DNA of 64,000 nucleotides from Bacteroidota bacterium (lineage in GTDB: Bacteria > Bacteroidota > Ignavibacteria > UBA10030 > UBA6906), in assembly GCA_030835135.1 (NCBI GenBank), contig JAUQWO010000003.1, forward strand, positions 1 to 64,000, read 5' to 3'. Positions 1 to 18,660 of the stretch are shown piece by piece. The notes under the pieces were generated by a model that saw nothing but the letters and a program-made list of their open reading frames with translations, searched no databases and was not told where the DNA came from. Position 1 is the first letter of the stretch, and each line of letters begins with the position of its first letter. The position numbers were made by a program, and so were the translations under genes.

Positions 1-153
1 CAGGACAGCGTCGGCAGAATCACCACTCTCCGAATACCCGACAATTTCATCCACACCCATAGCTGGACCGAGAACAAGGACCTCAATGAGGAGCTTACGC
101 GCAGCCTCACAGGTCCCATCGCCAATACCTCCCCGGTGAACAGCCATGGTTGA
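1..153 (+). CDS. C-terminal fragment of an unidentified protein (truncated by window start)
   Basis: Frame 1 is open from base 1 to TGA at 151-153 (…QDSVGRITTLRIPDNFIHTHSWTENKDLNEELTRSLTGPIANTSPVNSHG*) and overlaps the start of the next gene by 8 bp. Confidence 0.5.
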   Translation, partial: QDSVGRITTLRIPDNFIHTHSWTENKDLNEELTRSLTGPIANTSPVNSHG

Positions 154-2224
154 TTGGGAGGCTTTTCAACCAGCGGCCCTCACGGTCATGCTGGGCGGAT
201 ATGCGCTGGGAGGGGTGGTCCCGGCGATTCTGGGCATCCTGTGGAGAAATCGCACGAAACCCGGAGGATCCCTCACCGGGGCAGTCAAGAACATCGGATT
301 CGGTCTGGCGCTGGCTGCGGCGCTTGCCGGATGTCTCCTCTCTCTCTCGATCCTCATTTCCGGTACACCGCTCCACATGGAGTTTCTCCCGACTGCCCAC
401 GTTGGGATGATGGGATTTCATGCCGACACACTGTCGGCACTCTTCATTGGAGCTATTTCACTCCTCGGCGCAGCCGCTGCATGCTTCTCTCTCGGATATG
501 CCGCGGAGTTCCTCCTGCGCCGTAGTATGGTCCTGCTCGTGGTCCTGTACAATTTTTTCGTCCTCTCGATGATCGGGGTCCTGATCGCAGACCATGCCCT
601 CCTGTTCCTCTTTTTCTGGGAATGCATGTCGCTGACGACGTATTTCCTGATCACGTTTGAACATGAAGAGCATGCGGCACGCCGGGCGGGATTTCTCTAC
701 ATCGTCATGACCCACATCGGAACCGCCTTTCTTCTCGTCATGTTCCTCCTGCTCTATTCTACGGCAGGATCCTTCGCTTTCGAAGCATTCCGCATGGAGG
801 GAGCCCGGCTCCCCGCCTCCACACAATCCGTGGTCTTTCTCTGTGCCACCATCGGATTCGGCATCAAAGCGGGGATCATCCCCTTTCACATCTGGCTCCC
901 GGAGGCCCACCCCGCGGCACCAAGCAATGTCTCGGCAATGATGTCCGGCGTGATGATCAAGACGGGCATCTACGGGATGGTCAGGGTCTTCTTCGATTTC
1001 CTCGGACCCGTCATTCCCGGATGGTGGGGAGTTCTCATTCTTACGATCGCAGTGACGTCATCCGTGCTCGGCGTACTCTACGCGCTGATGGAGCACGACC
1101 TCAAACGCCTGCTGGCATTTCACAGCATTGAGAATATCGGGATCATTCTGATGGGAGTCGGTGCGGCGCTCCTGTTCGCCTCCTGGGGGAACAGACCGCT
1201 TGCCGTGATCGCGCTGATCGCGGGCCTCTACCATGTGCTGAATCACGCCATATTCAAAGGGCTCCTCTTTCTCGGTGCCGGCTCCGTTCTCCATGCCGCG
1301 CACACGCGGAACATTGAAGATCTCGGGGGACTGATCAAGAGGATGCCGTGGACCGCATTCTTCTTTCTCATCGGGGCGATCGCCATATCGGGACTTCCTC
1401 CGCTCAACGGCTTCATCAGCGAGTGGCTGACCTTTCAGGCCTTGTTGCTGGGATTCCACATCCCGGACCTTACCGTGAAGATCGTCATTCCACTCACGGT
1501 CGCGCTTCTCGCTCTTACAGGCGCTCTCGCCGCGGCCTGTTTCGTGAAGGCCTTCGGCATCACCTTTCTCGGACTTCCGCGATCAGGGCACGCAGACCGG
1601 GCAGGCGAATCATCGTTCACCATGCTCGCCGCCATGGGCTTCCTCGCCCTGCTGTGCATCTTCCTGGGAATTGCCCCGGGTCCCATTGTCTCAGTATTGA
1701 ATCCCCTTGCCAGCTCATTGCTGGAAGAGGCCTCCACCGGTCAGATCGTCATGCATGCGGGCACCGTGCTCATCCCCCGGAGCGCCTCCGCCAGCATTTC
1801 CCCGGCCGCGCTGACCGGATTGCTGGTCGTGATCGCTGCGATCCCCCTCGCGGGGATCTCCATCTTCGTTCTCAAGTCGCGCTCCCGCATTGCCCCCACC
1901 TGGGCGTGCGGACTGGAGAGGATCGACCCCAGGATGCAGTATACTGCGACGGGATTCAGCAAGCCCCTGCGCATCATCTTCTCGGATATCTTTCGTGCGA
2001 CGCATGAGGTCGGCATTTCCGAAGAGCCCTCTCCCTATTTCCGGCCGACCATCACGTATGAACTCAAGACCGAGTCCGTCTTCCTGAAATACCTCTACGA
2101 ACCGGTCTTCCGTAGCATCGTTTCCGCCGCGCGCATCATTCGCCGGATCCAGACCGGGCGTATCCAGACCTACCTGGCGTACATTTTCGTTACGCTCATC
2201 CTTCTCCTCCTCTTCGCCCGGTGA
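146..2224 (+). CDS. hyfB: Hydrogenase-4 subunit B-like / NuoL-M-N-type proton-conducting membrane subunit
   Basis: 692 aa polytopic ORF with antiporter-like motifs (FFWECMSLTTYFLITFEHE, GIKAGIIPFHIWLPEAHPAAPSNVSAMMSGVMIKTGIYG). Confidence 0.9.
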   Translation: MVDWEAFQPAALTVMLGGYALGGVVPAILGILWRNRTKPGGSLTGAVKNIGFGLALAAALAGCLLSLSILISGTPLHMEFLPTAHVGMMGFHADTLSALFIGAISLLGAAAACFSLGYAAEFLLRRSMVLLVVLYNFFVLSMIGVLIADHALLFLFFWECMSLTTYFLITFEHEEHAARRAGFLYIVMTHIGTAFLLVMFLLLYSTAGSFAFEAFRMEGARLPASTQSVVFLCATIGFGIKAGIIPFHIWLPEAHPAAPSNVSAMMSGVMIKTGIYGMVRVFFDFLGPVIPGWWGVLILTIAVTSSVLGVLYALMEHDLKRLLAFHSIENIGIILMGVGAALLFASWGNRPLAVIALIAGLYHVLNHAIFKGLLFLGAGSVLHAAHTRNIEDLGGLIKRMPWTAFFFLIGAIAISGLPPLNGFISEWLTFQALLLGFHIPDLTVKIVIPLTVALLALTGALAAACFVKAFGITFLGLPRSGHADRAGESSFTMLAAMGFLALLCIFLGIAPGPIVSVLNPLASSLLEEASTGQIVMHAGTVLIPRSASASISPAALTGLLVVIAAIPLAGISIFVLKSRSRIAPTWACGLERIDPRMQYTATGFSKPLRIIFSDIFRATHEVGISEEPSPYFRPTITYELKTESVFLKYLYEPVFRSIVSAARIIRRIQTGRIQTYLAYIFVTLILLLLFAR

Positions 2225-3177
2225 ATATGGCCACGATAATACTCCTGTCGTTCCTGTTCCAGATCATACTGGTGATCGCGCTCGCCCCGCTGGTCACCGG
2301 CATCATCCGAAAGACGAAGGCGCGGTTCCAGCACCGCCGGGGTGCGACCGTCCTTCAGCCGTACTACGATCTGGTAAAACTGATGAGGAAAGACGTCGTC
2401 GTCTCTTCCGTCGCCTCGTGGCTCTTCCATTGCACACCGTTTGTGGTCTTCAGCTCCATGGTCGTCATTTCCCTGCTCGTGCCGACCGTGGTGACCCCTG
2501 TGCCGCTGCACTGGGTCGGCGACATCATCGCTGTCATTTACCTCTTTGCCCTCGGACGGTTCTTCATGGCCCTCGTGGGACTTGATACCGCCAGTGCCTT
2601 CGGTGGACTTGGTTCGAGCCGTGAGATGTCCATCGCATCGATCGTCGAACCCGCGATGATGCTCGCGATCTTCACGGCCGCCGTGACCGCCGGCTCCACG
2701 GACCTGAGCGTCATCGTCGACCGGCTCTCCACCACCCCCGCGTCGATGCTGAACCCCTCTCATCTTCTGGCATTTGCGGGTCTCTTTGTCGTTTCCCTGG
2801 CAGAAACAGGGCGGATCCCGGTTGATAACCCGGCAACGCATCTCGAACTCACCATGATCCATGAAGCGATGATCCTGGAGTATTCGGGGCCATATCTTGC
2901 TCTCATCGAATGGGCCTCGCAGGTGAAACTGGTCATCTTTCTGGCGCTGATGGCCAACATGTTCTTCCCCCTCGGGATGGCCACCACATGGTCGCCATCG
3001 GCATTGGCCGTTGGCGCCGGGGCCTTCCTTCTCAAAGTCATCGGCCTCGCACTGATCGTCGCACTCGTGGAATCCACGAACGCCAAGCTTCGCCTGTTCC
3101 GCGTACCGGAACTGCTCGTGGTGGCATTCATCCTCTCCCTGCTGTCGTTGATCCTCTATTTCATCGTGGGAGCATGA
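2221..3177 (+). CDS. hyfC: Respiratory complex I subunit 1 / NuoH-HyfC-like membrane subunit
   Basis: 318 aa; RRGATVLQPYYDLVKLMRKD, GSSREMSIASIVEPAMM, HLELTMIHEAMILEYSGPYLAL are NuoH/HyfC-type motifs; 4-bp overlap with the preceding gene. Confidence 0.9.
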   Translation: MNMATIILLSFLFQIILVIALAPLVTGIIRKTKARFQHRRGATVLQPYYDLVKLMRKDVVVSSVASWLFHCTPFVVFSSMVVISLLVPTVVTPVPLHWVGDIIAVIYLFALGRFFMALVGLDTASAFGGLGSSREMSIASIVEPAMMLAIFTAAVTAGSTDLSVIVDRLSTTPASMLNPSHLLAFAGLFVVSLAETGRIPVDNPATHLELTMIHEAMILEYSGPYLALIEWASQVKLVIFLALMANMFFPLGMATTWSPSALAVGAGAFLLKVIGLALIVALVESTNAKLRLFRVPELLVVAFILSLLSLILYFIVGA

Positions 3178-3857
3178 CGATGATCCCCGTCCATCTGCCC
3201 CTGGTCGAGTTGCTCATCGACATTTTCGCTGCCTCCATCCTGGTCACGGCATTCCTCATCGTGTCCAGCAGGAGTCTCGTGTTCTACATCCGGCTGTTCG
3301 CCCTGCAGTCGCTCCTTCTGGGCATGGTCGCCCTGCTGGTGGTGATCGGATACGGCGAAACGCACATCCTCATCGCAGCAATTCTGACGATCGCGATCAA
3401 GGCGATCGCCATTCCGGTCGTCCTCACGCGTGTCATCGAACGCATTCACGTGCAGAAGGAGATCCGTTTCAGGATGAGTATCACCGCATCGCTCATGTTC
3501 TGCGGTGGCATTGTCATACTCGCAGACTCCGTCGCGCAGTCGATCCTCCGCTCTCCCCATGCAGAGGCATCCGCGGTCACACGTGTCCTCTCCGTGTCCA
3601 TTGCGATGATGCTCATCGGACTTTTCATCATGATGACACGACAGAAGGCACTCACCCAGATCATCGGACTGTTGACCATGGAGAACGGCGTCTTCCTCTC
3701 GGGTCTCTCCATTACGTACGGCATGCCGCTGATCGTCGAGGTCGGCATCTTCTTTGACATCCTCGTCGCCGTCCTGATCCTGGGCGTCTTCGTGTTCCGC
3801 ATCAACAAAACGTTCGAATCGATCAGTATCGATTCGCTCAGGAGCCTTCGACATTGA
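3174..3857 (+). CDS. hyfE: Hydrogenase-4 subunit E-like membrane protein
   Basis: ATG at 3174 inside the longer ORF 2910..3857; small polytopic protein in the expected operon position with 4-bp coupling to hyfC. Confidence 0.8.
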   Translation: MTMIPVHLPLVELLIDIFAASILVTAFLIVSSRSLVFYIRLFALQSLLLGMVALLVVIGYGETHILIAAILTIAIKAIAIPVVLTRVIERIHVQKEIRFRMSITASLMFCGGIVILADSVAQSILRSPHAEASAVTRVLSVSIAMMLIGLFIMMTRQKALTQIIGLLTMENGVFLSGLSITYGMPLIVEVGIFFDILVAVLILGVFVFRINKTFESISIDSLRSLRH

Positions 3858-5326
3858 GCACGATCATCCTGGGCCTGCTCCTGGGTCTGCCGGTGGCAGG
3901 AACCCTTCTCTGTGCGGTCCTGCACCAGCGAAGAATTCTGGAGACCGTCACGGTGTCGGTCGGCGGCCTGACCTTCCTTTCTGCGCTCTGGCTCGTTGCG
4001 GAAGTCATGCAGGGGACCACGATCAGTTCCTCGGAAGGCTGGTTATATGCTGATGCGTTGTCGGCGTACATCATCATCATCATCTCCGGCAGCGCGCTGG
4101 TGGTTGCGCTCTATTCCACCGGATATCTGCGCCGCCAGATCCGTGATGGGAAGGTCAGCGACCGCCAGTTGTGGCTCTACTACCTCCTGCTCAACGCGTT
4201 CCTCTGTACCATGATGGTAGTGCTGCTCTCCAACAATCTTGGTTTCCTGTGGATCGGATCCGAAGCGACCACCCTGGCGACGGCATTCCTCGTGGCCTTC
4301 TATGAACGGGAGCGATCGATCGAAGCGGCATGGAAGTACGTGATCATCTGCTCGGTCGGCATCGGCTTTGCCTTGTTCGGGATCATTCTGACCTACTATT
4401 CCGCCCTCCACGTGGTTCCGGGTTCCGGGAACGCCCTGAACTGGTCATCGCTCATGCTGGTCGCGAAGGACCTTGACCCTGCCGTGCTCAAACTCGCGTT
4501 CATCTTCATCCTCGTTGGGTTCGGGACGAAGGCCGGGCTGGCACCCCTGCATACATGGAAGCCCGACGCGTACGGCGAGGCACCGACACCGATCAGTGCC
4601 CTGATGGCCGCCGGACTTGTCAATGTCGCTCTCTACTCGCTCATGCGGTTCTATGTCCTGGTGAATACTGCTGTGGGTGGCACCTATGCACCAACCCTCT
4701 TCATGGTGTTCGGCCTCGTTTCCATGGGCATCGCTCTGCCGTTCATCCTGTTGCAGAAGGACTTCAAGAGAATGCTGGCGTATTCCAGCGTGGAGCATGT
4801 TGGCATCATCGTGTTTGCCATCGGCATCGGGACCCCGCTGGCCTATTTCGGTGCACTCCTGCATCTTCTCAACAATGCCCTCGCCAAGATGGTCCTCTTC
4901 CTGACGGCCGGCAACGTGCGCCTCGCGTACGGGTCACGACTGATGCGCAGAGTGACCGGGGCGATCAAGGTGATTCCCGTTTCGGCATCGTTCCTCATCG
5001 TCGGGGTCTTTGCCCTTACGGGATGGCCGCCGTTCGGCGTGTTCATCAGCGAATTCACGATCGTCACGGCCGGAATCGACCGTGGCTATGTGGTCCCGGT
5101 GATCTTCTTCATCGCCATTATCGCAGCCGTGTTTGTCGGGTTCATCTACTACACCTCGCGGATGGTGTTCGGTGAGCCCAACGTCCCTGTCACCGGCGGC
5201 GAGGCTGAACCGCTTGCATTGTGGGTGCTCGGACTCCTGCTCGCGGCACTGCTCCTGCTCGGGGTCTATCTGCCCCCTCCGCTCGAGCAGGTCATCGAGA
5301 ATGCGGCCCGGGTACTGAAGGGTTGA
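3854..5326 (+). CDS. hyfF: Hydrogenase-4 subunit F-like / NuoL-M-N-type membrane subunit
   Basis: 490 aa; LGFLWIGSEATTLATAFLVAFY, FGTKAGLAPLHTWKPDAYGEAPTPISALMAAGLVNVALY; TTG start overlapping the hyfE stop. Confidence 0.88.
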   Translation: MSTIILGLLLGLPVAGTLLCAVLHQRRILETVTVSVGGLTFLSALWLVAEVMQGTTISSSEGWLYADALSAYIIIIISGSALVVALYSTGYLRRQIRDGKVSDRQLWLYYLLLNAFLCTMMVVLLSNNLGFLWIGSEATTLATAFLVAFYERERSIEAAWKYVIICSVGIGFALFGIILTYYSALHVVPGSGNALNWSSLMLVAKDLDPAVLKLAFIFILVGFGTKAGLAPLHTWKPDAYGEAPTPISALMAAGLVNVALYSLMRFYVLVNTAVGGTYAPTLFMVFGLVSMGIALPFILLQKDFKRMLAYSSVEHVGIIVFAIGIGTPLAYFGALLHLLNNALAKMVLFLTAGNVRLAYGSRLMRRVTGAIKVIPVSASFLIVGVFALTGWPPFGVFISEFTIVTAGIDRGYVVPVIFFIAIIAAVFVGFIYYTSRMVFGEPNVPVTGGEAEPLALWVLGLLLAALLLLGVYLPPPLEQVIENAARVLKG

Positions 5327-5331
5327 CGGGA

Positions 5332-6927
5332 ATGACCACCAAACAAGAGTATATGGCGTTGCTCGAAAAGTCGCTGGGAGACCGTCTGACCATTCGCGAG
5401 GCTCCGGCACCGAACGAGCTGTACCTCTCGCTGCATGAAGGGGCCCTGGCCTTAGTTCCGGAGACCTGTTCCCTGCTCACCCGATCACTCAAGGCGCACT
5501 TCACAACGCTCGCTGCCAACGATGAACGGATGCTGAATGGCAGGTTCTCTCTGTACTACATCTTCTCGGTCCCCCCGGCCGATCTCTTTCTGATCCTTCA
5601 GGTGCCGGTGGACCCCCGCCATATGGAAGTGCCTTCGATCAGTCATATCATCGAAGGCGCGAATTGGTTCGAACGTGAGGTGAAGGACTGCTTCGGGATC
5701 ATTGCCTTCCCGAACATCTACAAACTGGCATCACATCCTGACTGGCCCGAGGATATGCATGTGATGCTGAAGGATGTCGACCCCGGACAGTCTGTTCCAC
5801 GTGTGAAGGGGAGGTTTGACTTCAAAGAGGTCGAAGGTGAAGGAGTATTCGAGATCCCTGTCGGACCTGTCCATGCAGGCATCATCGAACCGGGACATTT
5901 CCGTTTCAGCGTTGCCGGGGAACCCATCATCAGTCTTGCACTCCAGCTTTTCTACACGCATAAGGGAACCGAGAAGATCGCGGAAGGCAGGTCTCCCCGA
6001 CACGCTGTCTTCCTTGCGGAAAGCATCTCCGGCGACTCGTCCTTCGGGCATGCCATTGCGTTCTGCCACGCCATCGAACGGCTGAGCGGTTTCGACCCCC
6101 CGCCCCGGGCCATCGTGATCCGAACCATGCTGCTTGAGCTGGAGCGATTGTGTAACCACATCAGCGATATCGGGGCCATTCTGATGGACGTCGGGTTCTC
6201 CGTCGGCGCCGCGACCGCATTCGAACTCAAGGAACAGTTCCTCGCTCTCAACGAGATCCTGACGGGGAGCAGACTCCTCCGCGGTGTCGCTGCCATCGGT
6301 GGCGTCAGGAGGGATCCGGAGAATGGTCCGTCTCGCCACGAGGCACTGCGCAAGACGCTCGAGCACGGAAAGCGGTCCTTTGAGGATCTCGTGAGTCTGA
6401 TCATGACGAGCTCTTCGGTCATGGACCGCCTGGAAACGACGGGGGTTCTGAGCCCTCTGGACGCATATCGCCTGGGCATCACCGGTATCGCGGGGAGAGC
6501 CTCCGGCATCGACCGGGACTACAGACGCGACCACCCACACTGTGCATATCCGGAGAGCCATGTCCACGTCGCGACGCGCACGGAAGGAGATGTTCTTGCC
6601 CGGGTCCGCATCCGCATCGACGAGATCCGCGATGCCTTTGCGCTGGTGGAGGATCTGCAGGGACGGCACGCGGGCCAGCCGATTCTCGCACAGGTCACAC
6701 CCGTTCCTCCCGGACGCTCTGCTCTCGGATATGTGGAGGGCTGGCGCGGAGAGATCATCCACTGGGTCATGACCGACAAGACCGGCAACATATTCCGCTG
6801 GAAGATCACCGATCCATCGTTCCATAATTGGCGGGCACTCACGCTCGCAGTGAGAAATAACATTGTACCGGATTTCCCCGTGATCAATAAGAGCTTCAAT
6901 CTGTCGTATTCCGGGAATGACCGGTAA
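5332..6927 (+). CDS. HyfG-like fused NuoC+NuoD subunit lacking the [NiFe]-ligand Cys motifs (Ehr-like large subunit)
   Basis: ATG at 5332 inside ORF 5221..6927 (MTTKQEYMALLEKSLG…). Contains GPVHAGIIEPGHFRFSVAGE (NuoD/HyfG), but the L1 position reads AESISGDSSFGH and the C-terminal L2 position reads SFNLSYSGNDR. Confidence 0.88.
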   Translation: MTTKQEYMALLEKSLGDRLTIREAPAPNELYLSLHEGALALVPETCSLLTRSLKAHFTTLAANDERMLNGRFSLYYIFSVPPADLFLILQVPVDPRHMEVPSISHIIEGANWFEREVKDCFGIIAFPNIYKLASHPDWPEDMHVMLKDVDPGQSVPRVKGRFDFKEVEGEGVFEIPVGPVHAGIIEPGHFRFSVAGEPIISLALQLFYTHKGTEKIAEGRSPRHAVFLAESISGDSSFGHAIAFCHAIERLSGFDPPPRAIVIRTMLLELERLCNHISDIGAILMDVGFSVGAATAFELKEQFLALNEILTGSRLLRGVAAIGGVRRDPENGPSRHEALRKTLEHGKRSFEDLVSLIMTSSSVMDRLETTGVLSPLDAYRLGITGIAGRASGIDRDYRRDHPHCAYPESHVHVATRTEGDVLARVRIRIDEIRDAFALVEDLQGRHAGQPILAQVTPVPPGRSALGYVEGWRGEIIHWVMTDKTGNIFRWKITDPSFHNWRALTLAVRNNIVPDFPVINKSFNLSYSGNDR

Positions 6928-6938
6928 GACCTGTTTCG

Positions 6939-9140
6939 GTGCACATCATATCGTATGAGAGGGAGGACAGCAGCGCAATGAGAACAGTTGTTCGAAAGCT
7001 CGATCCACGACACATGGATCTCGCGGCATACTTCCGCGAATTCAATTTCCCGGAGCTCTCCCGCTTTTCCCTGACACACATCAAGGGCGACCTTATCGGC
7101 GGCCTGACGGCGGCGATCGTCGCTCTCCCCCTCGCGCTGGGGTTTGGTTTGCTTGCATTCAACGGTGACCCGCGGGGAGCCGTTGCGGGTCTGTACGGTG
7201 CCATTTTTACCGGTATCCTCGCGTCCCTGTTCGGCGGAACCCAGCAGCAGATCACCGGCCCGACCGGGGGAATGACCGTCATTCTGACCTCCGTGTATAT
7301 CGAATACGGTGGCCCGGAGGCTCTTCTCGCCGCATGCATTCTCGCGGGCGTTTTTCAATTCATCTATGGCCTTCTGAAGGTGGGCAAATACGTCCACCTG
7401 GTCCCGTATCCTGTCACGGTGGGTTTCACCAATGGCATCGCCATTCTCATTTTCCTCCAGCAATTCGGGACATTCAATACCGCACCGCTCATTGCCCTCG
7501 TCACGATGGGCACCATTTACCTCGTACCACGGATCAGCCGCTCACTCCCGAAAGCACTCATCGGATTGATCGCGGGATCGGTCGTCGCATACGCATTCTC
7601 TTCCCTCGATATCCTCCGGACCGTGTATGACCCGGCCGCGGGCGGACTCACGGTCGCCTCCGCGATCAGGGTGATCGGCGAGATCCCTTCGAATTTTCAA
7701 CTGCCGAATCTCCCTGGCATCACGTGGGAGACCTGGAGAAAACTCCTTCCCGCAGCGTTCACGATCTCGCTCCTCGGGTCCATCGAGACCCTCCTCGCGT
7801 CGGTCGTGGCCGACAATGCAACACACTCACGCCACAACAGCAACAGGGAACTGCTCGGTCAGGGCATCGGCAACTTTGTGGCCGGTATCTTCGGTGGCGT
7901 TGCGGGTACCGGTGCCATCGTGCGGACGATGGTCAATGTGCGTGCAGGGGGCATGACGCGTCTGTCAGGGATCATCCACGGTCTCGTTCTGGTCCTGGTC
8001 ATGCTCTTTCTCGGCCCGCTGGCCTCCGCCATCCCGCTCGCAGCCCTTGCTGGCGTCCTCATGATGACCGCCCTTGGCATGCTCGAGCTCGAACCGATCA
8101 AGTTGCTCCCCCGGACCCCCCTCCCGGATGCAGCGGTCATGGTGGCCACGATCCTGATCACGGTATTCACCGACCTGATCACCGCGGTCGAGGTCGGCAT
8201 GGTCATGGCATCGTTCCTCTTCGTCTATCGCATGAGTGAAATGGGCATGGACCACAAGCTCCTTGAGGAGGTGAAAGGCGTCGCGCTCGATGAGCCAACG
8301 CGCAAGCTCCTCAAGGAGAACAAGATCGTCATCTTCGACGTGGAAGGCCCCCTCTTCTTTGGTGCGGCCAAGAGCTTCGTGACCGCTCTCGAGAACAACT
8401 TCGACGTCAAGGTTGTCATCCTGGATATGGAGAACGTCCCGGTGATCGATACCACGGGCATCGTGGCCATCGAGAACATCGTTGAACGGTTGCACCACGA
8501 CAAAAAGCGCCTCCTGATCGTCGGTATGCGCGACAATGTAAGGAAGATCGTATACGACCTTGGCGTGACCCGGAAGATCGGCATCGGGAACTTCCTCAAT
8601 ACCACGGACGAGGCGATCCGGTATGCACTGGAGATCACGAAGGATGAGGTGGAACGGACGTATCTCGGTGGCTTCGTCTCCGAATCCCTGATCATGCTTG
8701 ATGTCAGCGTCGGGGACCGCAACGAGCTGCTCGGCAAAATGGTCGCGCAGGCGTACAACGCGGGGATCGTGAAGAACAAGGAGATCTTCATGGAGAATCT
8801 CCTGCAACGGGAGGATCTCACGCCCACGATCATCGGCAGAGGCGTTGCCGTTCCCCACGCGCACTCGGGCGACGCCGACGCCCATGTGGTTGTGGTCTTT
8901 GCCCGGCTGCGTGAACCGATCCGCTATAGCCAGGAGAACCCCGAACTCGTCCGGATGGTGTTCATGGTGGCGACGGGCACGAACGAACGCGAGTATCTCA
9001 ACGTCCTGCGCCTCATCGCGACCAATATCGGTCACGCGGGCGTACACAAGCGCCTCCTGGAAGCACACGATGTGCACGAGGTGCATCATCTTCTCTCGGA
9101 GTTGAAGACAACCCAACCCCTGACCGTGCAGAGCGAATGA
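6939..9140 (+). CDS. SulP-family anion transporter with STAS domain and C-terminal PTS EIIA (type 2) domain
   Basis: 733 aa; SulP core (GLTAAIVALPLALGFGLLA…GLYGAIFTGILASLFGGTQQQITGPTGGMTV), STAS (VKVVILDMENVPVIDTTGIVAIE), EIIA-like C-terminus (REDLTPTIIGRGVAVPHAHSG). Confidence 0.9.
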   Translation: MHIISYEREDSSAMRTVVRKLDPRHMDLAAYFREFNFPELSRFSLTHIKGDLIGGLTAAIVALPLALGFGLLAFNGDPRGAVAGLYGAIFTGILASLFGGTQQQITGPTGGMTVILTSVYIEYGGPEALLAACILAGVFQFIYGLLKVGKYVHLVPYPVTVGFTNGIAILIFLQQFGTFNTAPLIALVTMGTIYLVPRISRSLPKALIGLIAGSVVAYAFSSLDILRTVYDPAAGGLTVASAIRVIGEIPSNFQLPNLPGITWETWRKLLPAAFTISLLGSIETLLASVVADNATHSRHNSNRELLGQGIGNFVAGIFGGVAGTGAIVRTMVNVRAGGMTRLSGIIHGLVLVLVMLFLGPLASAIPLAALAGVLMMTALGMLELEPIKLLPRTPLPDAAVMVATILITVFTDLITAVEVGMVMASFLFVYRMSEMGMDHKLLEEVKGVALDEPTRKLLKENKIVIFDVEGPLFFGAAKSFVTALENNFDVKVVILDMENVPVIDTTGIVAIENIVERLHHDKKRLLIVGMRDNVRKIVYDLGVTRKIGIGNFLNTTDEAIRYALEITKDEVERTYLGGFVSESLIMLDVSVGDRNELLGKMVAQAYNAGIVKNKEIFMENLLQREDLTPTIIGRGVAVPHAHSGDADAHVVVVFARLREPIRYSQENPELVRMVFMVATGTNEREYLNVLRLIATNIGHAGVHKRLLEAHDVHEVHHLLSELKTTQPLTVQSE

Positions 9141-9207
9141 TCACCGTGCCAGCCCTCATGCAGACATCGGCTCGATATGCGCGCGGGAACCGCCCGGGAG
9201 GAGACTC

Positions 9208-10086
9208 TTGCTGAAGATCGTGAAACGGGTACTGTGGGGAGGTGTTGCGACGAATGCCTTTCCCACAACCATTGCGGAACCGCCGGACGGATTCCGCGGG
9301 AAGCCGGTCATCGATTTCGCCCGGTGCACGGCCTGCGGCGACTGCGCGCTGGCGTGCCCGACCTCTGCCCTTACGGTCGGCCCGGATCCGGGCGAAATGG
9401 AAGGGAAGGTCCTGACACTTGACTACGGTGCCTGCGTGTTCTGCGGGGAGTGCGAAGCGGCGTGCCCGGATACGATCCGGCTGACGAAAGAGTTCCGACT
9501 GGCGGCCGCCGACAGGAATGCGCTGTGTTCTCAGGCGCTCTATCGTGTCGGGCCGGACGGTGCATACCGGTACACCGGACTTCGCGTCACGACCCCGGCG
9601 CCCGTCGATGGCATCCAGGCATCTGGACTCGCACTCAAACAGAAGATCCGGAAAGTGCTCGGGCGCTCGCTCCACATCCGGGAGGTCGATGCAGGATCGT
9701 GCAACGGATGCGAGGTCGAGATCACCGCTCTGAACAACCCCATCTATGATATCGAACGGTTCGGGATACACTTCGTTGCATCCCCCCGTCACGCAGACAT
9801 GCTGCTCGTGACAGGGCCCGTCACCCGGAACATGGAGATCGCCCTCCGACAGACCTACGAGGCGACGCCGGAACCAAAGATGGTCGTGGCAGTGGGAGCG
9901 TGCGGGATCAGCGGAGGGATATTCGGATCAAGCTATGCGTCACTCGGTGGAGTTGCGAACGTCATCCCGGTGGATGTGTACATTCCGGGCTGCCCTCCGC
10001 GCCCGGAAGCACTGTTGCACGGGATCTTTGTTGCCCTTGATCGATACGGGACGAAACGTCAGGCCGACCTCATCCCGCCCCGGTGA
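9208..10086 (+). CDS. Fused 2x[4Fe-4S] ferredoxin (NuoI/HyfH-like) and NuoB/HyfI-like subunit
   Basis: 292 aa; CTACGDCALACP and CVFCGECEAACP ferredoxin motifs, then NuoB-type CNGCE … GACGISGGIFG … GCPPRPEALLHG. TTG start preceded by gggaggag. Confidence 0.9.
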   Translation: MLKIVKRVLWGGVATNAFPTTIAEPPDGFRGKPVIDFARCTACGDCALACPTSALTVGPDPGEMEGKVLTLDYGACVFCGECEAACPDTIRLTKEFRLAAADRNALCSQALYRVGPDGAYRYTGLRVTTPAPVDGIQASGLALKQKIRKVLGRSLHIREVDAGSCNGCEVEITALNNPIYDIERFGIHFVASPRHADMLLVTGPVTRNMEIALRQTYEATPEPKMVVAVGACGISGGIFGSSYASLGGVANVIPVDVYIPGCPPRPEALLHGIFVALDRYGTKRQADLIPPR

Positions 10087-10111
10087 GCGGTGGTCCGAGG
10101 GCGAGTCACCA

Positions 10112-11215
10112 TCAGCATGCTTCGTCGATGATACCCCCGCCAACCACGTCGTCGCCCTCGTACAGAACCACGGATTGCCCCGGGGTGATCGCCCTCCGCG
10201 GCTCATCGAACCGCACCTCCAGACGACCGTCGTCGAGGGTCGCCGCCGTAGCAGCCCCGCCCTTGTCCAGATACCTGATCCGCGCCAGCACGGACCGTGG
10301 TTCACGGCAATCAGCGTACCTGATCATGTTCACGTGTGATGCGCGAAGACCATTCGCGTGCAGGTCCGCATCGCGTCCCAGTTCCACGCGGTTCGTGGCC
10401 GGGTCGATGCTCTTCACGAACACCGGTTCACCTGCCGCGAACCCCAGGCCACGCCGCTGCCCTATCGTGAAGAAAGGATAGCCGCGGTGTGTTCCGACCA
10501 CCTCGCCATCCATCACCAGTGGGCCACCCTGCACCTTCTGCTCCAATCCCGGCACGGCCTCCTTCAGGAAGCGCTCGTAGTTGTTGTCCGTGATGAAACA
10601 GATCTCAAAACTCTCGCCCTTCCCCGCAGTGGTGAGCCCGAATCGCCGCGCGGCCTCGCGCACCTCCGCTTTTGTCATCGCACCCAGAGGGAACAGGGTC
10701 CGTGCCAGCGACTCCTGGGTCAGACCCCAGAGCGCATACGATTGGTCCTTCGCTCCATCGACACCCCGGAGAAGACGGTGCCGTCCCGTCACCTCATCCT
10801 TCAGCACGCGGGCATAGTGACCGGTGGCAATGGCCTCCGCGCCAAGCGCCGTGCTCTTCCGCAACAGTTCTTCCCACTTGATCGTTCTGTTGCACAGCAC
10901 GCACGGGTTCGGTGTCCTCCCGGCAAGGTACTCTGCAATGAACGGTTGTATCACCTGCGTATCGAACGGTTCGCTCATGTCCAGCACGTAGTGCGGGATC
11001 CCCAGGTGCGCGGCAACAGCGCGAGCATCGTTGATCCCGTCAAGTGAGCAGCAACTCGTCTCCCCCGACGGCGTGCCGCCCACATCCTCATACCGGAAGG
11101 TCTTCAGCGTGATGCCGATGACCTCGAACCCCTGCTCCACCAGCATGGCTGCGGCGACCGACGAGTCGACGCCACCACTCATCGCGACGACCACTCTGCG
11201 ACTCACGGTTCCCAT
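10112..11215 (-). CDS. mnmA: tRNA-specific 2-thiouridylase MnmA
   Basis: VVVAMSGGVDSSVAAAML (PP-loop), GRTPNPCVLCNRTIKW, ATGHYAR; start chosen at MGTVSRR within ORF 10112..11239. Confidence 0.93.
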   Translation of the reverse strand: MGTVSRRVVVAMSGGVDSSVAAAMLVEQGFEVIGITLKTFRYEDVGGTPSGETSCCSLDGINDARAVAAHLGIPHYVLDMSEPFDTQVIQPFIAEYLAGRTPNPCVLCNRTIKWEELLRKSTALGAEAIATGHYARVLKDEVTGRHRLLRGVDGAKDQSYALWGLTQESLARTLFPLGAMTKAEVREAARRFGLTTAGKGESFEICFITDNNYERFLKEAVPGLEQKVQGGPLVMDGEVVGTHRGYPFFTIGQRRGLGFAAGEPVFVKSIDPATNRVELGRDADLHANGLRASHVNMIRYADCREPRSVLARIRYLDKGGAATAATLDDGRLEVRFDEPRRAITPGQSVVLYEGDDVVGGGIIDEAC

Positions 11216-11243
11216 CTCTCCCTCCTGCCCTTCCTGCACACCG

Positions 11244-12209
11244 TCAGCGCTCCAGCTCTTTCCAGATCAACGCACTTGCGCCGAGGACTGCCGTGTTCCC
11301 CTCCGTCAGTCCGGACGGAAGGATCTTCACTTTGTTCCGGAAGATGTTCAGCATGAACTCTTCCATGTACATTTTGGTCGGCCCGATGATCAGGTCCCCG
11401 GCGTTCGCCAGGCCACCAAACAGAATGATCGCCTCGGGGCTCGTGTGCGTCACCGCATCCGCAAGCTTCATGCCCAGGATCCGCGCGGTCCGGTCGAACG
11501 CGGCCCGCGCCACCTTGTCGCCTTTCAGCGCGGCATCTGCCAGCTTCCTTGCGGTCAATTCATCGAAGGCAATGTGCCGCAGCGGGCTATCATCGCGGCT
11601 CTCCGCAAGGAGTTCAAATGCCGTACGGCAAATGCCGCCGGCGGAAGCGTATGCCTCCAGACATCCGCGACGTCCGCATCCGCACCAGCGACCGGCAGGA
11701 TCGACGATGGTGTGCCCGAGCTCGCCGGCAAAACCATCCGCACCGTAAATGAGTTGTCCGTTCGCGACGAGGCCGCTCCCCACTCCCGTCCCAAGGGTGA
11801 TGACGATATAGTCCTTCATGCCCTTGGCCGCACCGAACATCCCTTCACCAAGCGCCGCGGCATTGGCATCGTTCGTGATCGCCACCGGAACATCCATGTG
11901 CTTCCGGACCAGACCGACCACATCGATGACGCCCTTCCAACTGAGGTTGGGCGGGTACTCCACCGTCCCGCGATAGTAATTGGCGTTCGGGGCCCCGATG
12001 CCGATCCCGCGAATCGACGGGTGCGATGGGATGCCCGCGTGCAATGTGGTGATGGCCGCATGGAGCCGCTCGATCAGCTGTTCGGGCGGATCCTGCGCTC
12101 TGGTCTCGATGGATGATTCCGCCAGGCAGGCGCCATTGCGCTCGACGAACCCGAACACCGTATTGGTGCCGCCGATATCGACGCCGACTGTAACATCAGG
12201 TGAGGACAT
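11244..12209 (-). CDS. ROK family protein (glucokinase-like)
   Basis: TVGVDIGGTNTVFGFVE, LGTGVGSGLVANGQLIYGADGFAGELGHTIVDPAGRWCGCGRRGCLEAYAS (ROK zinc motif). Confidence 0.92.
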   Translation of the reverse strand: MSSPDVTVGVDIGGTNTVFGFVERNGACLAESSIETRAQDPPEQLIERLHAAITTLHAGIPSHPSIRGIGIGAPNANYYRGTVEYPPNLSWKGVIDVVGLVRKHMDVPVAITNDANAAALGEGMFGAAKGMKDYIVITLGTGVGSGLVANGQLIYGADGFAGELGHTIVDPAGRWCGCGRRGCLEAYASAGGICRTAFELLAESRDDSPLRHIAFDELTARKLADAALKGDKVARAAFDRTARILGMKLADAVTHTSPEAIILFGGLANAGDLIIGPTKMYMEEFMLNIFRNKVKILPSGLTEGNTAVLGASALIWKELER

Positions 12210-12241
12210 GGGTGACTCTTCCCGTTCGTGGTGATCCAATC

Positions 12242-12269
12242 TTTATAATGAAGAAAAACGCGTGACCAA
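12242..12269 (-). promoter_or_regulatory. Putative promoter for the ROK kinase gene (TTGGTC-N16-TATAAA)
   Basis: Minus-strand hexamers at 12264-12269 and 12242-12247, about 33 nt upstream of the start codon. Confidence 0.35.
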
Positions 12270-12305
12270 TATCAACCCGGGCAGGTGACGGCCGGACAGG
12301 CTCCA

Positions 12306-14303
12306 TCAACGAAAGGGCAGAAGAGAGGTCGGGTCCGCATCGCATTGCAGCGTGAGCACGGGGGCATCGTGGCGGATGTGAAGCCGGACATTCCGCTGCG
12401 TGGCGGCGAACCTCGCCGACAGGGCAAGCCCATCAACGACCGACGTTCGGATGAGGGCATACCAGCGGAGGCCGGAGCCAGAGAGGGGCGGTGACGAATA
12501 CGCGCCGTCCACATCCCGCTCCACCAGATAGACACGGGAAGCATAGGAGTCCGTCGCGAAGAGCTCCCAACGGACATCGATCGTGATCCCCGGCATGAGC
12601 ACCACGTGAACGTCGCTCCCCATCATCCACCCTGCCTCTGACCCCCTCCCGGGTTCGTTACCCGAGGCCCGGACGTGCGCGACGCGCGTCTGCACACGGA
12701 CCGAGCGCGACACTGCATGATCGAGTGTGATGAGATAGGAACGACGCGCGGAAAGGAAAGAACCGCCCCGGGGGAGGAGACCCGAAGCTGCCTGGCGTTC
12801 CCAGGATTCGGACGTGGATGTGCGGAGCGAGACTGCGAGCGTCAGGAAACGCGAAACCCGCTGGGAGATCCTGAGAGACAACTCATCCCCTTCCGGGGGC
12901 AGGCGGTCGAGTGCCGTGCGCCATGGTCGCCCATGCCGGATCACCGAACCGATGCAGGTCATGCCCGGCCAGGGAGCACACTCGCACCGGAGCGCAACTC
13001 CCGCATCATTGACCAGATCACTTCCCGTGAGACCGGTCCCCCCTTTCCTGTTCTGAAACCCCGGAGATGCAAACCATGCACCCACGGAGAGCTCCGTCTG
13101 AAGACCCAGGGCCAGTCCGACCCTGCCCGTCAGGGCATGACCTTCACGCATCCATGCGCCTTCGCCGGCCAAGGTCACTCGACCGGCGATCATTGACAGA
13201 TCCAGGCCGAGGATCCTGGCTTCTTGCACATCACCGAACAGCGGCTCCGCTGTGAAAGGCCGGGAGAGCCGGTCCCAGAGGAATGTCACTCCACACGCCG
13301 GCCCCGCCTGGGGTACCCATGCCACGCGTGCGCATGCCGACCATTCCTGCACTCCGGGTGCCGTAGCGCTCGATGTCTGATCAGCATCCTGCCGGAGAGC
13401 AAGGGACCTGACGTTCCCTTCTCCATCAAAGGTTGCGGAGAACGGCGTCCGGCCCGCACATCCACCGAACGACAGCACACCCGCAGTTGAGCGCACCCGC
13501 ATGGTCGCGCCAACGCCACGGATGACGCGCGTTCCCGACGTCCCATGGAACGACTCGAGGCGCAATGGACCAGACCACCCCCAGCCACGCAGCCCATCGC
13601 TCAGCCCTCCCCCTGCCCGGCCGAGAACAAGACCCTGCGCACAGCCAGCAGAAAGATCGCCGACCACGACCCGTTCAATGAACATGCCCGGCCACGAGAA
13701 AGCGACGCCCCCGGTTACATATGCCCGTGCATATGGTTGCCCTGGCTCGCGCAAGAGGCTGAGTTCCCCGGCCACTGCGTCACCCCACCGGAGCATCAAC
13801 CGATGATATTCGCGGGTTGCGATCCCGGCCGCATCATCAGCACCTGCCGGCGACGCGACGGGCAGGCGCAACACGGTCCGTGAACGGAGCCTGCCATGGA
13901 ACGATGTCGTGGCGGACACACGCGTGAACGGCGCCAGCACCTGAAATATCCGCAGGCCCTCCGGCCCGCGCCGTGCAAGTTGCTCAACGCTGGCGAACCG
14001 GCCTATGCGTGAACGCCAGCGGATGACGAGCCGTGCATCGTCCGGCGCCATGCCGGGGATCGTGGCGAGGTCGGCTTCATCCACCCCGTTGAGATCGAGG
14101 GGATGATCCAGGAGCCACATGAGACGTTCCTGCACTGTCTCTCCGGCCGGATCGTCCGCCGCGAGTTCGGACATCGATGACAGATCGGACACGAACACCG
14201 TCGTGTCCGTCGTGGAGGAGTCCGGCTCGCATGGGGCCGCGCCGGGAGCACCGCACGGGATGGCGATGAGTAGCAGGAGAGAATGCAACCGGAGGTCAAT
14301 CAA
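12306..14303 (-). CDS. Secreted helix-hairpin-helix protein with predicted outer-membrane beta-rich region
   Basis: 665 aa; hydrophobic N-terminus, HHH-like PLDLNGVDEADLATIPGMAPDDARLVIRWR, then long alternating beta-type sequence. Confidence 0.7.
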   Translation of the reverse strand: MIDLRLHSLLLLIAIPCGAPGAAPCEPDSSTTDTTVFVSDLSSMSELAADDPAGETVQERLMWLLDHPLDLNGVDEADLATIPGMAPDDARLVIRWRSRIGRFASVEQLARRGPEGLRIFQVLAPFTRVSATTSFHGRLRSRTVLRLPVASPAGADDAAGIATREYHRLMLRWGDAVAGELSLLREPGQPYARAYVTGGVAFSWPGMFIERVVVGDLSAGCAQGLVLGRAGGGLSDGLRGWGWSGPLRLESFHGTSGTRVIRGVGATMRVRSTAGVLSFGGCAGRTPFSATFDGEGNVRSLALRQDADQTSSATAPGVQEWSACARVAWVPQAGPACGVTFLWDRLSRPFTAEPLFGDVQEARILGLDLSMIAGRVTLAGEGAWMREGHALTGRVGLALGLQTELSVGAWFASPGFQNRKGGTGLTGSDLVNDAGVALRCECAPWPGMTCIGSVIRHGRPWRTALDRLPPEGDELSLRISQRVSRFLTLAVSLRTSTSESWERQAASGLLPRGGSFLSARRSYLITLDHAVSRSVRVQTRVAHVRASGNEPGRGSEAGWMMGSDVHVVLMPGITIDVRWELFATDSYASRVYLVERDVDGAYSSPPLSGSGLRWYALIRTSVVDGLALSARFAATQRNVRLHIRHDAPVLTLQCDADPTSLLPFR

Positions 14304-15117
14304 GGCAGATGCTTACCGACAGATGGTGGGTATCCCCGAGTTGGCGGTGATGGGTCATGCCATACTCGATCGCGACCGGATCGAGACTGATCCCGAAGCC
14401 GCCGCACATCAGGGAGGGTTCCGAGGAGAGGCCCACGCGCAGGACCAATTCCGGGATGACGGCGTATGCGGCCCCGAGATCCCATTCCAGGGGGGAGAGG
14501 AGTTCCTGGCAGCATCGCGCGTAGAACGTCGCCCCTGCTTCACCGGGTGCACAGGCACAGCCGATGGCAAGCGATACGGGCAAGGGCTCCCCCGCACTGC
14601 CGATGCGGGTGGCGGTGATGTTCGTGAGCAGCGCAGCGATCTGGTACCCTGGAGCGATCTCACAGCGACAGCCGGCGTCGAGGGCCGGCACGGTCGTCTG
14701 GCCATACCCATCGATGCCGAGCATCTCCAGCCGGATCCGGAGGCCCGCAGACCATCCCCCGCTCCCTGCGCATGCTGCGGCAAGCGCCAGAGAGGTTTCC
14801 TTGTACCCCCTGAGTCCCAGGGATGATGCCGAGATCGCCACGGGAATGTCTCCCAGGGCGAGTCCGGCGGAACACCCTGTCCTCTGCAACCCGTCGATGC
14901 CGAAGACCGAAGGGATGCTCCAGACCACCAGCGAAACCCCGCGCAGACCGGCGAGCCCTGCAGGATTCATCGTTCCTGCCACAACGTCGCCATGGAGCGT
15001 GAGCGCAGCCCCGCCCAATGCCGCAGCCCGGGCCCCGGTGAGCATCAACTCGAAGGCGGCCTCGCCCCGGGAGGGGATCGCCAGCGCCAACAGGAGAATG
15101 GATGTCAGGGTCTTCAT
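14296..15117 (-). CDS. PorV/PorQ-like outer-membrane beta-barrel protein
   Basis: 273 aa; signal peptide, then FELMLTGARAAALGGAALTLHGDVVAGTMNPAGLAGLRG, a PorV/PorQ-type N-terminus. Confidence 0.7.
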   Translation of the reverse strand: MKTLTSILLLALAIPSRGEAAFELMLTGARAAALGGAALTLHGDVVAGTMNPAGLAGLRGVSLVVWSIPSVFGIDGLQRTGCSAGLALGDIPVAISASSLGLRGYKETSLALAAACAGSGGWSAGLRIRLEMLGIDGYGQTTVPALDAGCRCEIAPGYQIAALLTNITATRIGSAGEPLPVSLAIGCACAPGEAGATFYARCCQELLSPLEWDLGAAYAVIPELVLRVGLSSEPSLMCGGFGISLDPVAIEYGMTHHRQLGDTHHLSVSICLD

Positions 15118-15168
15118 GTCCTTCCCTCCATGTTCAATACCCGGTCACGGCACACTTTACGGAAGGCA

Positions 15169-15197
15169 TTGAACACCGGCGGCAAAAACAGTATATT
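15169..15197 (+). promoter_or_regulatory. Putative sigma70-like promoter (TTGAAC-N17-TATATT)
   Basis: Hexamers at 15169-15174 and 15192-15197, 17-nt spacer, 32 nt upstream of the DUF4835 start. Confidence 0.55.
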
Positions 15198-15229
15198 CCT
15201 TCAGACCCTTAGATCTACCAGGAGAGCAC

Positions 15230-16129
15230 ATGCCCGTCAAGAGCACGCTTCGACTTCTCGCAGCGATCCTCGTCCTGCTTGCCCTGTGCACCCCGGCACC
15301 GGCCCAGCAGATCGATTGCACCGTCAAGGTGAATTATGAATCCGTTGGCGCTTCGAACAAGGACCTTCTGGTCAATTTCGAAGAGGATGTCCGGGCCTAC
15401 CTGAATAACTACCAGTGGGGTCCCGAGCAACTCGACGAGAAGATCAAGCTCTCACTCGACATCTTCATTCAGGGCGCCTCGGGCGACAACAAGTACATGG
15501 CGCAGGTGTTCATCGGCAGCCAGAGGCTGATCTATGGCGCAAAGAAGAACACAGCGGTGATGCGGATCTTCGACGAGGCGTGGGAGTTCTCCTACATCAA
15601 GAATCGCCCGATCAACCATGCCCCCCATAGTTTCTCGGACCTTGCAAGTTTCCTGGACTTCTACGTGTTCCTCGCACTGGGGTACGATTACGACACGTAC
15701 GATCCGATGGGCGGGACTCCCTGGTTCCAGAGGGCGTCGGACATCGCAAGTCTGGGGCGAACGAGTTCGCAGAAAGGCTGGCAGCAGGCGACCACCGGGT
15801 ACAGCCGGGCACAGTTGGTCACCGACCTCCTGAACCCGACAGTCGGACCGATCCGGGAGGCTTCCTACCAGTATCACTTCATGGGATTGGATTCACTCAC
15901 GGCGAACTGGCAGCGCGGGCTGGCGAACATCGCTCGCGCGATCGAGAGGATCAGCGTGGCGCGCAAGACATTGGATCCGCGGAACCTGGCGTTCAAGACC
16001 TTCTTCGATACGAAGTACATGGAGCTTGCGGAGGTGATGCGGGAATACCCCGACCGGAACATCTACAACACCCTCGCCCGTGTCGACCCGTATCATCAGT
16101 CGACATACGAAGAATTCAGGGCGAAGTAG
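15230..16129 (+). CDS. DUF4835 family protein (T9SS-associated, PorD-like)
   Basis: 299 aa; signal peptide and QQIDCTVKVNYESV…NNYQWGPEQLDEKIKLSLDIFI…LDFYVFLALGYDYDTYDPMGGTPWFQRA. Confidence 0.85.
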   Translation: MPVKSTLRLLAAILVLLALCTPAPAQQIDCTVKVNYESVGASNKDLLVNFEEDVRAYLNNYQWGPEQLDEKIKLSLDIFIQGASGDNKYMAQVFIGSQRLIYGAKKNTAVMRIFDEAWEFSYIKNRPINHAPHSFSDLASFLDFYVFLALGYDYDTYDPMGGTPWFQRASDIASLGRTSSQKGWQQATTGYSRAQLVTDLLNPTVGPIREASYQYHFMGLDSLTANWQRGLANIARAIERISVARKTLDPRNLAFKTFFDTKYMELAEVMREYPDRNIYNTLARVDPYHQSTYEEFRAK

Positions 16130-17240
16130 CAGCGAGCATCGCGAGCACTGCAGCAAGCACTTCCTCTTCCCCGATCTGCCGCATACAGGCAGATCCAAAC
16201 CGGGCGCCTTCCGGCACCCGGTCCTGACACACGCCCGGGGCACACGACCGGCATTCCTCCCTTCCGCTCATGGTGCGGCAGCGCTCTGTCTCGTCGTACA
16301 CCGCCCATTCCTTTCCATGATGGCGCCGGAACAGCGCGATCGATGGTGCGCCCACCGCGACCGCCAGGTGACGGGGACCCGAATCATTCGTCAGACACAC
16401 CCCGGCACGAAGAAGGAATCCGGCGAGGACCGAGATATCGGCACCCGGTTCAAGGACCGGGACGCTGCTGACACCGGGTGATCCGGTGATGGCATGGAGG
16501 ATCTCCTCATCGCCCTTCCCCGCGCACAACGCGAACGGGACGTCCGCCCCCTGCAGACGGCCGATCAACCCCGCCCACCGCTCGGCCGGCCATTGCTTGT
16601 ATTCTCCCGTGGCCCCGGGATGGATCGCCACATACCGCTTCCCGGCCAGTCCGGTCCGCTGCAGCCACGCATCCACGTCCCTGAGTCCTTCGGCTGAAGG
16701 AGCGAATGCCGTTGCGTAGGATCCCGTCTGCCCGCCCATGGACTCCGCGATCGTGCAATAGTAGCGGAGCACCCCCGCACTCCCGCGTGTCACCTCCGGC
16801 GTAACATTCAGGAGTCGTGACGCACCGGTCCCCCGTTCCCCCGCGCGCGCACGCGCTCCGGAAAGGTATGCAAGAACAGCGAAGCGATCTTCCGGGAATG
16901 TGCAGAACACGCCATCGTACCGCTCCGCCCGTATCGCACGCGCGATCGCCAGCTCTTCCATCAGGCGGCGTCGCGCCGGAAGCGTGCGCAGCAGCGCGCG
17001 GTCCACTTCGTAGACCCGGTCGACACCCGGGAAGCGCGTCATGACCGCGGCGGTGCCGTGTTCCTCCGACGGAAAGTAGACGGGTGCGCCGGCAGGCCTC
17101 GGAGGCAGCCGGCGCTGATAGATGATGACCGTGATGGTGGCCTGGGGATGGCCCGCACGCAGCGAACGAACGGCAGGTGTGAGCAGCAGAAGGTCGCCAA
17201 GCTGCCCCTCGGCGAGCACGAGGATGTTCCTCAGTTCCAT
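16116..17240 (-). CDS. Glycosyltransferase family 9 (heptosyltransferase-like)
   Basis: 374 aa; ILVLAEGQLGDLLLLTPAVRSLRAGHPQATITVI, YVAIHPGATGEYKQWPAERWAGLI, CLTNDSGPRHLAVAVGAPSIALF. Confidence 0.88.
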   Translation of the reverse strand: MELRNILVLAEGQLGDLLLLTPAVRSLRAGHPQATITVIIYQRRLPPRPAGAPVYFPSEEHGTAAVMTRFPGVDRVYEVDRALLRTLPARRRLMEELAIARAIRAERYDGVFCTFPEDRFAVLAYLSGARARAGERGTGASRLLNVTPEVTRGSAGVLRYYCTIAESMGGQTGSYATAFAPSAEGLRDVDAWLQRTGLAGKRYVAIHPGATGEYKQWPAERWAGLIGRLQGADVPFALCAGKGDEEILHAITGSPGVSSVPVLEPGADISVLAGFLLRAGVCLTNDSGPRHLAVAVGAPSIALFRRHHGKEWAVYDETERCRTMSGREECRSCAPGVCQDRVPEGARFGSACMRQIGEEEVLAAVLAMLAATSP

Positions 17241-18649: not shown

Positions 18650-18660
18650 AGTGCACCGGC

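Follow-up and report, generated by a model that had tools for sequence, protein, structure and literature searches.

The Ehr operon and its transporter gene

The window, by which we mean the whole 64,000-nucleotide stretch of DNA analysed, belongs to a genome of 4.9 Mb in 88 contigs and contains a complete Ehr operon on its forward strand (positions 146 to 10086). The genes follow each other in the order NuoL-like, NuoH-like, HyfE-like, second antiporter-like, fused C-D, SulP and fused I-B, and Pfam matches for all Ehr subunit types (NuoL/NuoM, NuoH, HyfE/NuoK, C-D and I-B) were found within this one operon (Table 1). The best NCBIfam model for the first antiporter-like subunit was hydrogenase 4 subunit B, with 724 bits versus a cut-off of 667. 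The HyfE/NuoK-like subunit has orthologues at the same position in other operons, with identities of 65 to 93%. The C-D subunit has ISGDSS and SLSYSG where hydrogenases carry the two NiFe-binding cysteine motifs (CxxC), and the C-D subunits of the aligned relatives likewise have no cysteine pairs at these motifs. Since the cysteines are missing at both NiFe-binding motifs, the complex is an Ehr and not a hydrogenase. The complex I-like Ehr would act as a redox-driven ion pump. The operon is followed by mnmA on the opposite strand (10112 to 11239).

Table 1. Positions of the features discussed, in the window unless a locus is named
Feature	Position	Strand	Evidence or remark
Ehr antiporter-like subunit 1 (NuoL/HyfB type)	146..2224	+	PF00361, 9.2e-58
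Ehr NuoH/HyfC-like subunit	2221..3177	+	PF00146, 8.8e-45
Ehr HyfE/NuoK-like subunit	3174..3857	+	PF00420, 5e-6, barely above cut-off
Ehr antiporter-like subunit 2 (NuoM/N/HyfF type)	3854..5326	+	PF00361, 6.4e-50
Ehr fused C-D large subunit, without NiFe-binding cysteines	5323..6927	+	PF00329 and PF00346
Shine-Dalgarno-like GGGAGGA before the conserved ATG	6961..6967	+	Read from the sequence
SulP-STAS-EIIA anion permease, 720 aa	6978..9140	+	PF00916, PF01740, PF00359; reading frame opens with GTG at 6939 (733 aa)
SulP transmembrane domain, two PF00916 stretches	7083..8150	+	PF00916, 1.5e-69, above cut-off
STAS domain	8316..8615	+	PF01740, 9.7e-17, above cut-off; residues 460-559 of the 733-aa frame
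PTS EIIA domain (type 2, fructose/nitrogen type)	8673..9101	+	PF00359, 2.9e-24; residues 579-721 of the 733-aa frame
Codon of the predicted phospho-His in GVAVPH	8856-8858	+	Within the EIIA domain
Ehr fused I-B subunit	9208..10086	+	Two 4Fe-4S motifs (PF00037/PF12838); NuoB-like PF01058, 2.7e-34
HTH-EIIA gene, example	L192:2899-3567		One of three examples; 41 further Ehr loci
HTH-EIIA gene, example	L201:2776-3447
HTH-EIIA gene, example	L253:15629-16306	-
SulP C-terminal remnant, 217 aa	L248:7067-7717	-	Just after I-B; Acidobacteriota

The initial annotation had read the frame from 6939 to 9140 as a SulP-STAS gene on the same strand as its neighbours, between the end of the C-D gene at 6927 and the start of the I-B gene at 9208. 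Pfam searches confirmed this placement and both domains but also revealed a C-terminal PTS_EIIA_2 domain (PF00359) that had been overlooked. The orthologues found in the same place in two other genomes (loci L189 and L190) open with MRT[VI]V, which matches the ATG at 6978, and therefore this ATG is the likely start. With it, the gap to the C-D gene is 50 bp and not 11 bp as first given, whereas the 67 bp on the downstream side are unchanged. A scan for sigma-70-like promoters, which is weak evidence, found none between the C-D and I-B genes, and both GC and GC3 of the SulP gene are like those of the neighbouring genes. It is the only SulP gene of the genome. An AlphaFold model of the SulP-STAS-EIIA protein, made from a four-row alignment only, had a mean pLDDT of 43 and was set aside.

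SulP in close relatives and in other families

According to the initial annotation, a lack of conserved SulP adjacency in related genomes would refute its reading, and such a lack is indeed seen in the nearest relatives, though not in the wider sample described below. The junction of the C-D and I-B genes is intact, with a spacing of 9 to 93 bp and no SulP, in G001, G007, G008, G018 and G019, which represent the window's genus and family, and also in G035 and G225 (f6). In G010, the C-D and second antiporter genes are frame-broken and a gap of 472 bp between C-D and I-B is SulP-free; two further operons end at contig edges. Conversely, SulP-STAS-EIIA homologues are also present in relatives that have no Ehr, mostly adjoining mnmA, and the relatives' homologues encoded elsewhere in the genome are about 56 to 73% identical where they are full-length. 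Ehr and SulP are separable in both directions; neither needs the other.

The gene mnmA is a conserved neighbour of SulP across much of the window's order, for two SulP types. The SulP gene adjoins it in G002, which is of the same genus, and in G009, G012, G017, G019, G024, G048, G051 and G059; in G027 and G050, the SulP near mnmA is of another type. In G005 and G311, as in the window, the Ehr operon itself ends next to mnmA.

These neighbourhoods, and the lack of SulP in most of the close Ehr operons, could be explained if SulP and Ehr had met at the mnmA site and SulP had then entered the operon without any shared function. We initially considered the adjacency to be peculiar to the window genome and a consequence of the mnmA site, but this was overturned by a class-wide sample. 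The order C-D, SulP, I-B was also found in G229 (family f6) and G311 (family f5), with SulP identities to the window of 84% (L189) and 75% (L190), respectively, and thus occurs in three families, the window's included. Chance insertion or an assembly error was ruled out by its presence in three genomes; the two others were assembled independently, and therefore the arrangement is no assembly artefact. In G229, moreover, no mnmA is nearby, which speaks against positional hitchhiking at this site.

The phylogenies point in the same direction. In the SulP tree, the proteins from the window and G229 group with a support of 99 and, with G311 added, of 94, and this single clade of in-operon proteins is nested among SulPs that are linked to mnmA or solitary. 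In the tree of the six Ehr subunits, however, operons with and without SulP are intermingled: G001 is the sister of the window, G055, in which the junction is cut, that of G229, and G019 that of G311. Both trees were quick searches with SH-aLRT support only. Since the in-operon SulPs form one clade but their Ehr operons do not, the arrangement has either been kept for a long time or been moved as a unit. One old insertion followed by several losses, or transfer of a cassette, would each fit both trees, and three separate insertions into the same C-D/I-B junction would be unlikely. This pattern speaks against hitchhiking without a shared function, which we consider unlikely, if still a serious alternative.

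SulP and EIIA at Ehr loci across phyla

The initial annotation had proposed to look for SulP inside Ehr-like operons of other genomes, and such a survey was carried out. The 194 Ehr loci comprised the window itself, the loci of its relatives, 80 named loci from GTDB, a further 40 from the class, and loci from the phyla of L114 (40 sampled) and L126 (20 sampled); at least one contig was counted twice, since L109, from an Ignavibacteriae MAG among the relatives of the window genome, looks like the same contig as that of G010. SulP was present at 17 of the 194 loci, window included, always on the operon strand and either inside the operon or at most 2.6 kb away. When the 194 loci were searched by tblastn with eight SulP queries, no SulP was found farther away than 2.6 kb or on the opposite strand. 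Ehr loci are not independent, and therefore lineages are the fair count: the 17 loci represent about six lineages in four phyla. The first has the order C-D, SulP, I-B (window, G229, G311). In family f14, SulP is followed by an HTH-EIIA gene and then NuoL1; in Nitrospirota (L126, L277, L284), SulP comes after I-B; and in L114 (Terriglobia), it lies immediately before NuoL1. In L118, a Planctomycetota MAG, SulP follows I-B, and DabA and a DabB-like gene (161 to 4678 of that locus) lie directly before the operon. A weak sixth lineage is represented by the C-terminal remnant of SulP at L248.

By chance, 0.12 to 0.36 SulP genes would be expected to lie on the operon strand and no more than 2.6 kb away, given the flank length and a density of one to three such genes per 3.5 Mb, compared to the roughly six lineages observed. 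Indeed, the genomes of L118 and L126 have one SulP each, and that of L114 has one plus one very weak match. As a family-blind control, all 1206 flanking open reading frames were clustered. The largest families found always on the operon strand and within 2.6 kb were HTH-EIIA (34 of 34 loci) and SulP (12 of 12), and sensor kinases and other flanking families were of mixed strand or more distant. The gene mnmA was not among the neighbours listed for the SulP-Ehr loci of other phyla, where SulP is again always on the operon strand, another point against hitchhiking at mnmA. The recurrence of SulP beside Ehr operons in unrelated phyla suggests that the two work together.

Other genes were also seen near Ehr. 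A protein of the sodium/bile acid symporter family (SBF) is encoded at L196 (1762 to 2796), and its family occurs near Ehr at six loci, upstream in four of them. A second NuoL-like gene lies upstream of the Acidobacteriota Ehr operons L255, L257, L259, L260, L263, L264, L266-L269, L271 and L272.

The EIIA domain provides a second thread. A gene encoding HTH_17 and PTS_EIIA domains lies upstream in 44 of the 194 Ehr loci, usually directly before NuoL1; they cover most of the class apart from the Ehr clade to which the window belongs, as well as some Acidobacteriota. The HTH-EIIA protein is likely a PTS-responsive regulator of Ehr. In the clade of the window, EIIA instead forms part of the SulP protein. 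Each of the 11 SulP-EIIA sequences in the alignment, and both of the HTH-EIIA ones, have the phospho-His, and phosphoryl donors of the PTS are encoded in the window genome, namely HPr on contig C60 and an 841-aa protein with HPr and EIIA on contig C35. Like PtsN/EIIA-Ntr and the HTH-EIIA regulators, the window protein has a type 2 EIIA with a conserved phospho-His, but here the domain is fused to a transporter, whereas HTH-EIIA genes head other Ehr operons. Two operon designs thus pair Ehr with EIIA, and in one of these a separate SulP is present as well; for this reason a functional link among Ehr, SulP and EIIA appears more likely than it would from any single adjacency. The association among the three is genuine, yet they are separable.

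The same survey bears on whether the permease is a part of the complex. In three families the SulP gene is flanked on both sides by structural genes of the complex, SulP accompanies DabA/NuoL operons (PMC5700660), and DabAB, Ehr and SulP all occur together at L118. By analogy to DabA on DabB, SulP could be docked on the membrane arm as a physical subunit, and electron transfer would drive anion movement directly. Close relatives, however, have Ehr without SulP and SulP without Ehr, the place of SulP varies by lineage (before NuoL1, between C-D and I-B, after I-B), and more than one SulP subfamily is involved, unlike a fixed subunit. A docked subunit is therefore improbable. Equally improbable is the corresponding redox-driven anion pump, in which an integral SulP would take up bicarbonate or another anion at the expense of electron transfer through C-D-I-B and EIIA would couple it to PEP and the PTS. 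The idea, raised in the initial annotation, that a redox pump is coupled to anion transport gains from the link of SulP to Ehr across lineages, but its physical form is unsupported because the modules are separable in both directions.

Substrate of the permease and a tentative model

The SulP protein of the window scored below the cut-offs of the NCBIfam equivalogs BicA (337.3 bits versus 880) and DauA (334.2 versus 614) and of the sulfate permease subfamily TIGR00815 (273.8 versus 380.45). Its best match among solved structures was BicA (6ki1, 216 bits), and BicA was also the nearest reference in the SulP tree, with a support of 89 and long branches. With the Na+/HCO3- symporter BicA it shares the SulP-STAS architecture, but it adds EIIA and has E and A aligned at D258 and T262, which we take to be the Na+ site of BicA. 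With the C4-dicarboxylate transporter DauA it shares SulP-STAS and a Glu at the matching GxxEsLL position.

SulP/SLC26 proteins include exchangers, and the window protein has the TM10-type Arg common in SLC26 proteins at a position where BicA has Gly. An anion exchanger, for example for Cl- and HCO3-, could balance charge and pH during electrogenic pumping. The same Arg is also found in the aligned DauA, however, and we give an exchanger little credence.

A sulfate importer that is merely co-expressed with Ehr would fit the membership in the SulP/Sulfate_transp family, the common neighbour mnmA, which encodes a sulfur-transfer enzyme, and the PAPS-reductase-family genes present in G229, G311, G351, G353, G677 and G685. 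But the window genome, which is rated 100% complete, has no gene of the PAPS-reductase family (PF01507), and therefore assimilatory sulfate uptake is unlikely there. Among the f14 genomes with SulP and Ehr, five of seven had no PF01507 match and the other two had weak ones (30.7 and 21.8 bits). A sulfate importer is rather improbable as well. Across 44 genomes, SulP showed no clear pattern with the genes of sulfate assimilation, and likewise none with beta-carbonic anhydrase, which does not track SulP. With E. coli Can as the query, no carbonic anhydrase was found beside Ehr at the loci.

Bicarbonate is a plausible leading substrate. This guess was helped by the company that SulP keeps with NuoL-type genes in DabA operons, of which those of DabA clade C often contain SulP and NuoM (PMC5700660), and by L118. 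DabA (PF10070) was not found in positions 1 to 20000 of the window, searched with the DabA of L118, nor at any other Ehr locus except L118. Compared to the DAB system, which consists of DabA/YbcC and the NuoL-like DabB, the window shares a NuoL-family pump linked to carbon or anion transport, but Ehr has the additional redox part C-D-I-B.

The reading we favour, with a probability of roughly 0.45 and thus tentatively, is a redox-driven Ehr pump with an accessory, PTS-controlled anion permease that is driven by the gradient of the pump. Ehr would build up a H+ or Na+ gradient by redox reactions. The permease, probably co-transcribed and thus made together with the pump, would not be a structural subunit; we regard it as accessory because Ehr and SulP each survive without the other. 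It would spend the H+ or Na+ gradient on uptake or exchange of an anion, perhaps bicarbonate, which is needed for carboxylations. The C-terminal EIIA, phosphorylated by the PTS chain of the cell, could gate uptake according to the supply of PEP, and the STAS domain would have the dimerising and regulatory role that it has in SulP proteins generally. Related Ehr operons may follow the same logic with separate genes, HTH-EIIA coming first and sometimes SulP before it.

Ehr, SulP, EIIA and the company of SulP with DabA and NuoL are already known. The Ehr complexes described from Geobacter (GSU0739-0745) and Nitrospira have, like that of the window, membrane subunits of the NuoL-, NuoH-, HyfE- and NuoM-like types; their small subunit is likewise NuoB-like and their large subunit lacks the NiFe cysteines, but the window adds SulP-STAS-EIIA between C-D and I-B. 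For Nitrospira, the function of Ehr is stated to be unknown (PMC10284858), and the literature passages on Ehr that we consulted do not mention SulP. A full-text search, with most subscription journals outside its reach, returned no paper that has SulP and Ehr together. Neither SulP-EIIA inside an Ehr operon nor the recurrent association of SulP or EIIA with Ehr was found in the literature searched, which was mostly non-subscription.

Ehr is common, being present in 149 of 246 sampled genomes of one phylum, and the permease and PTS domain that recur in its operons are testable clues to the role of the pump. If bicarbonate is carried, the connection of NuoL-type pumps with the uptake of carbon would extend from DabAB to redox-driven complexes, and a layer of PTS control over such uptake would be suggested.
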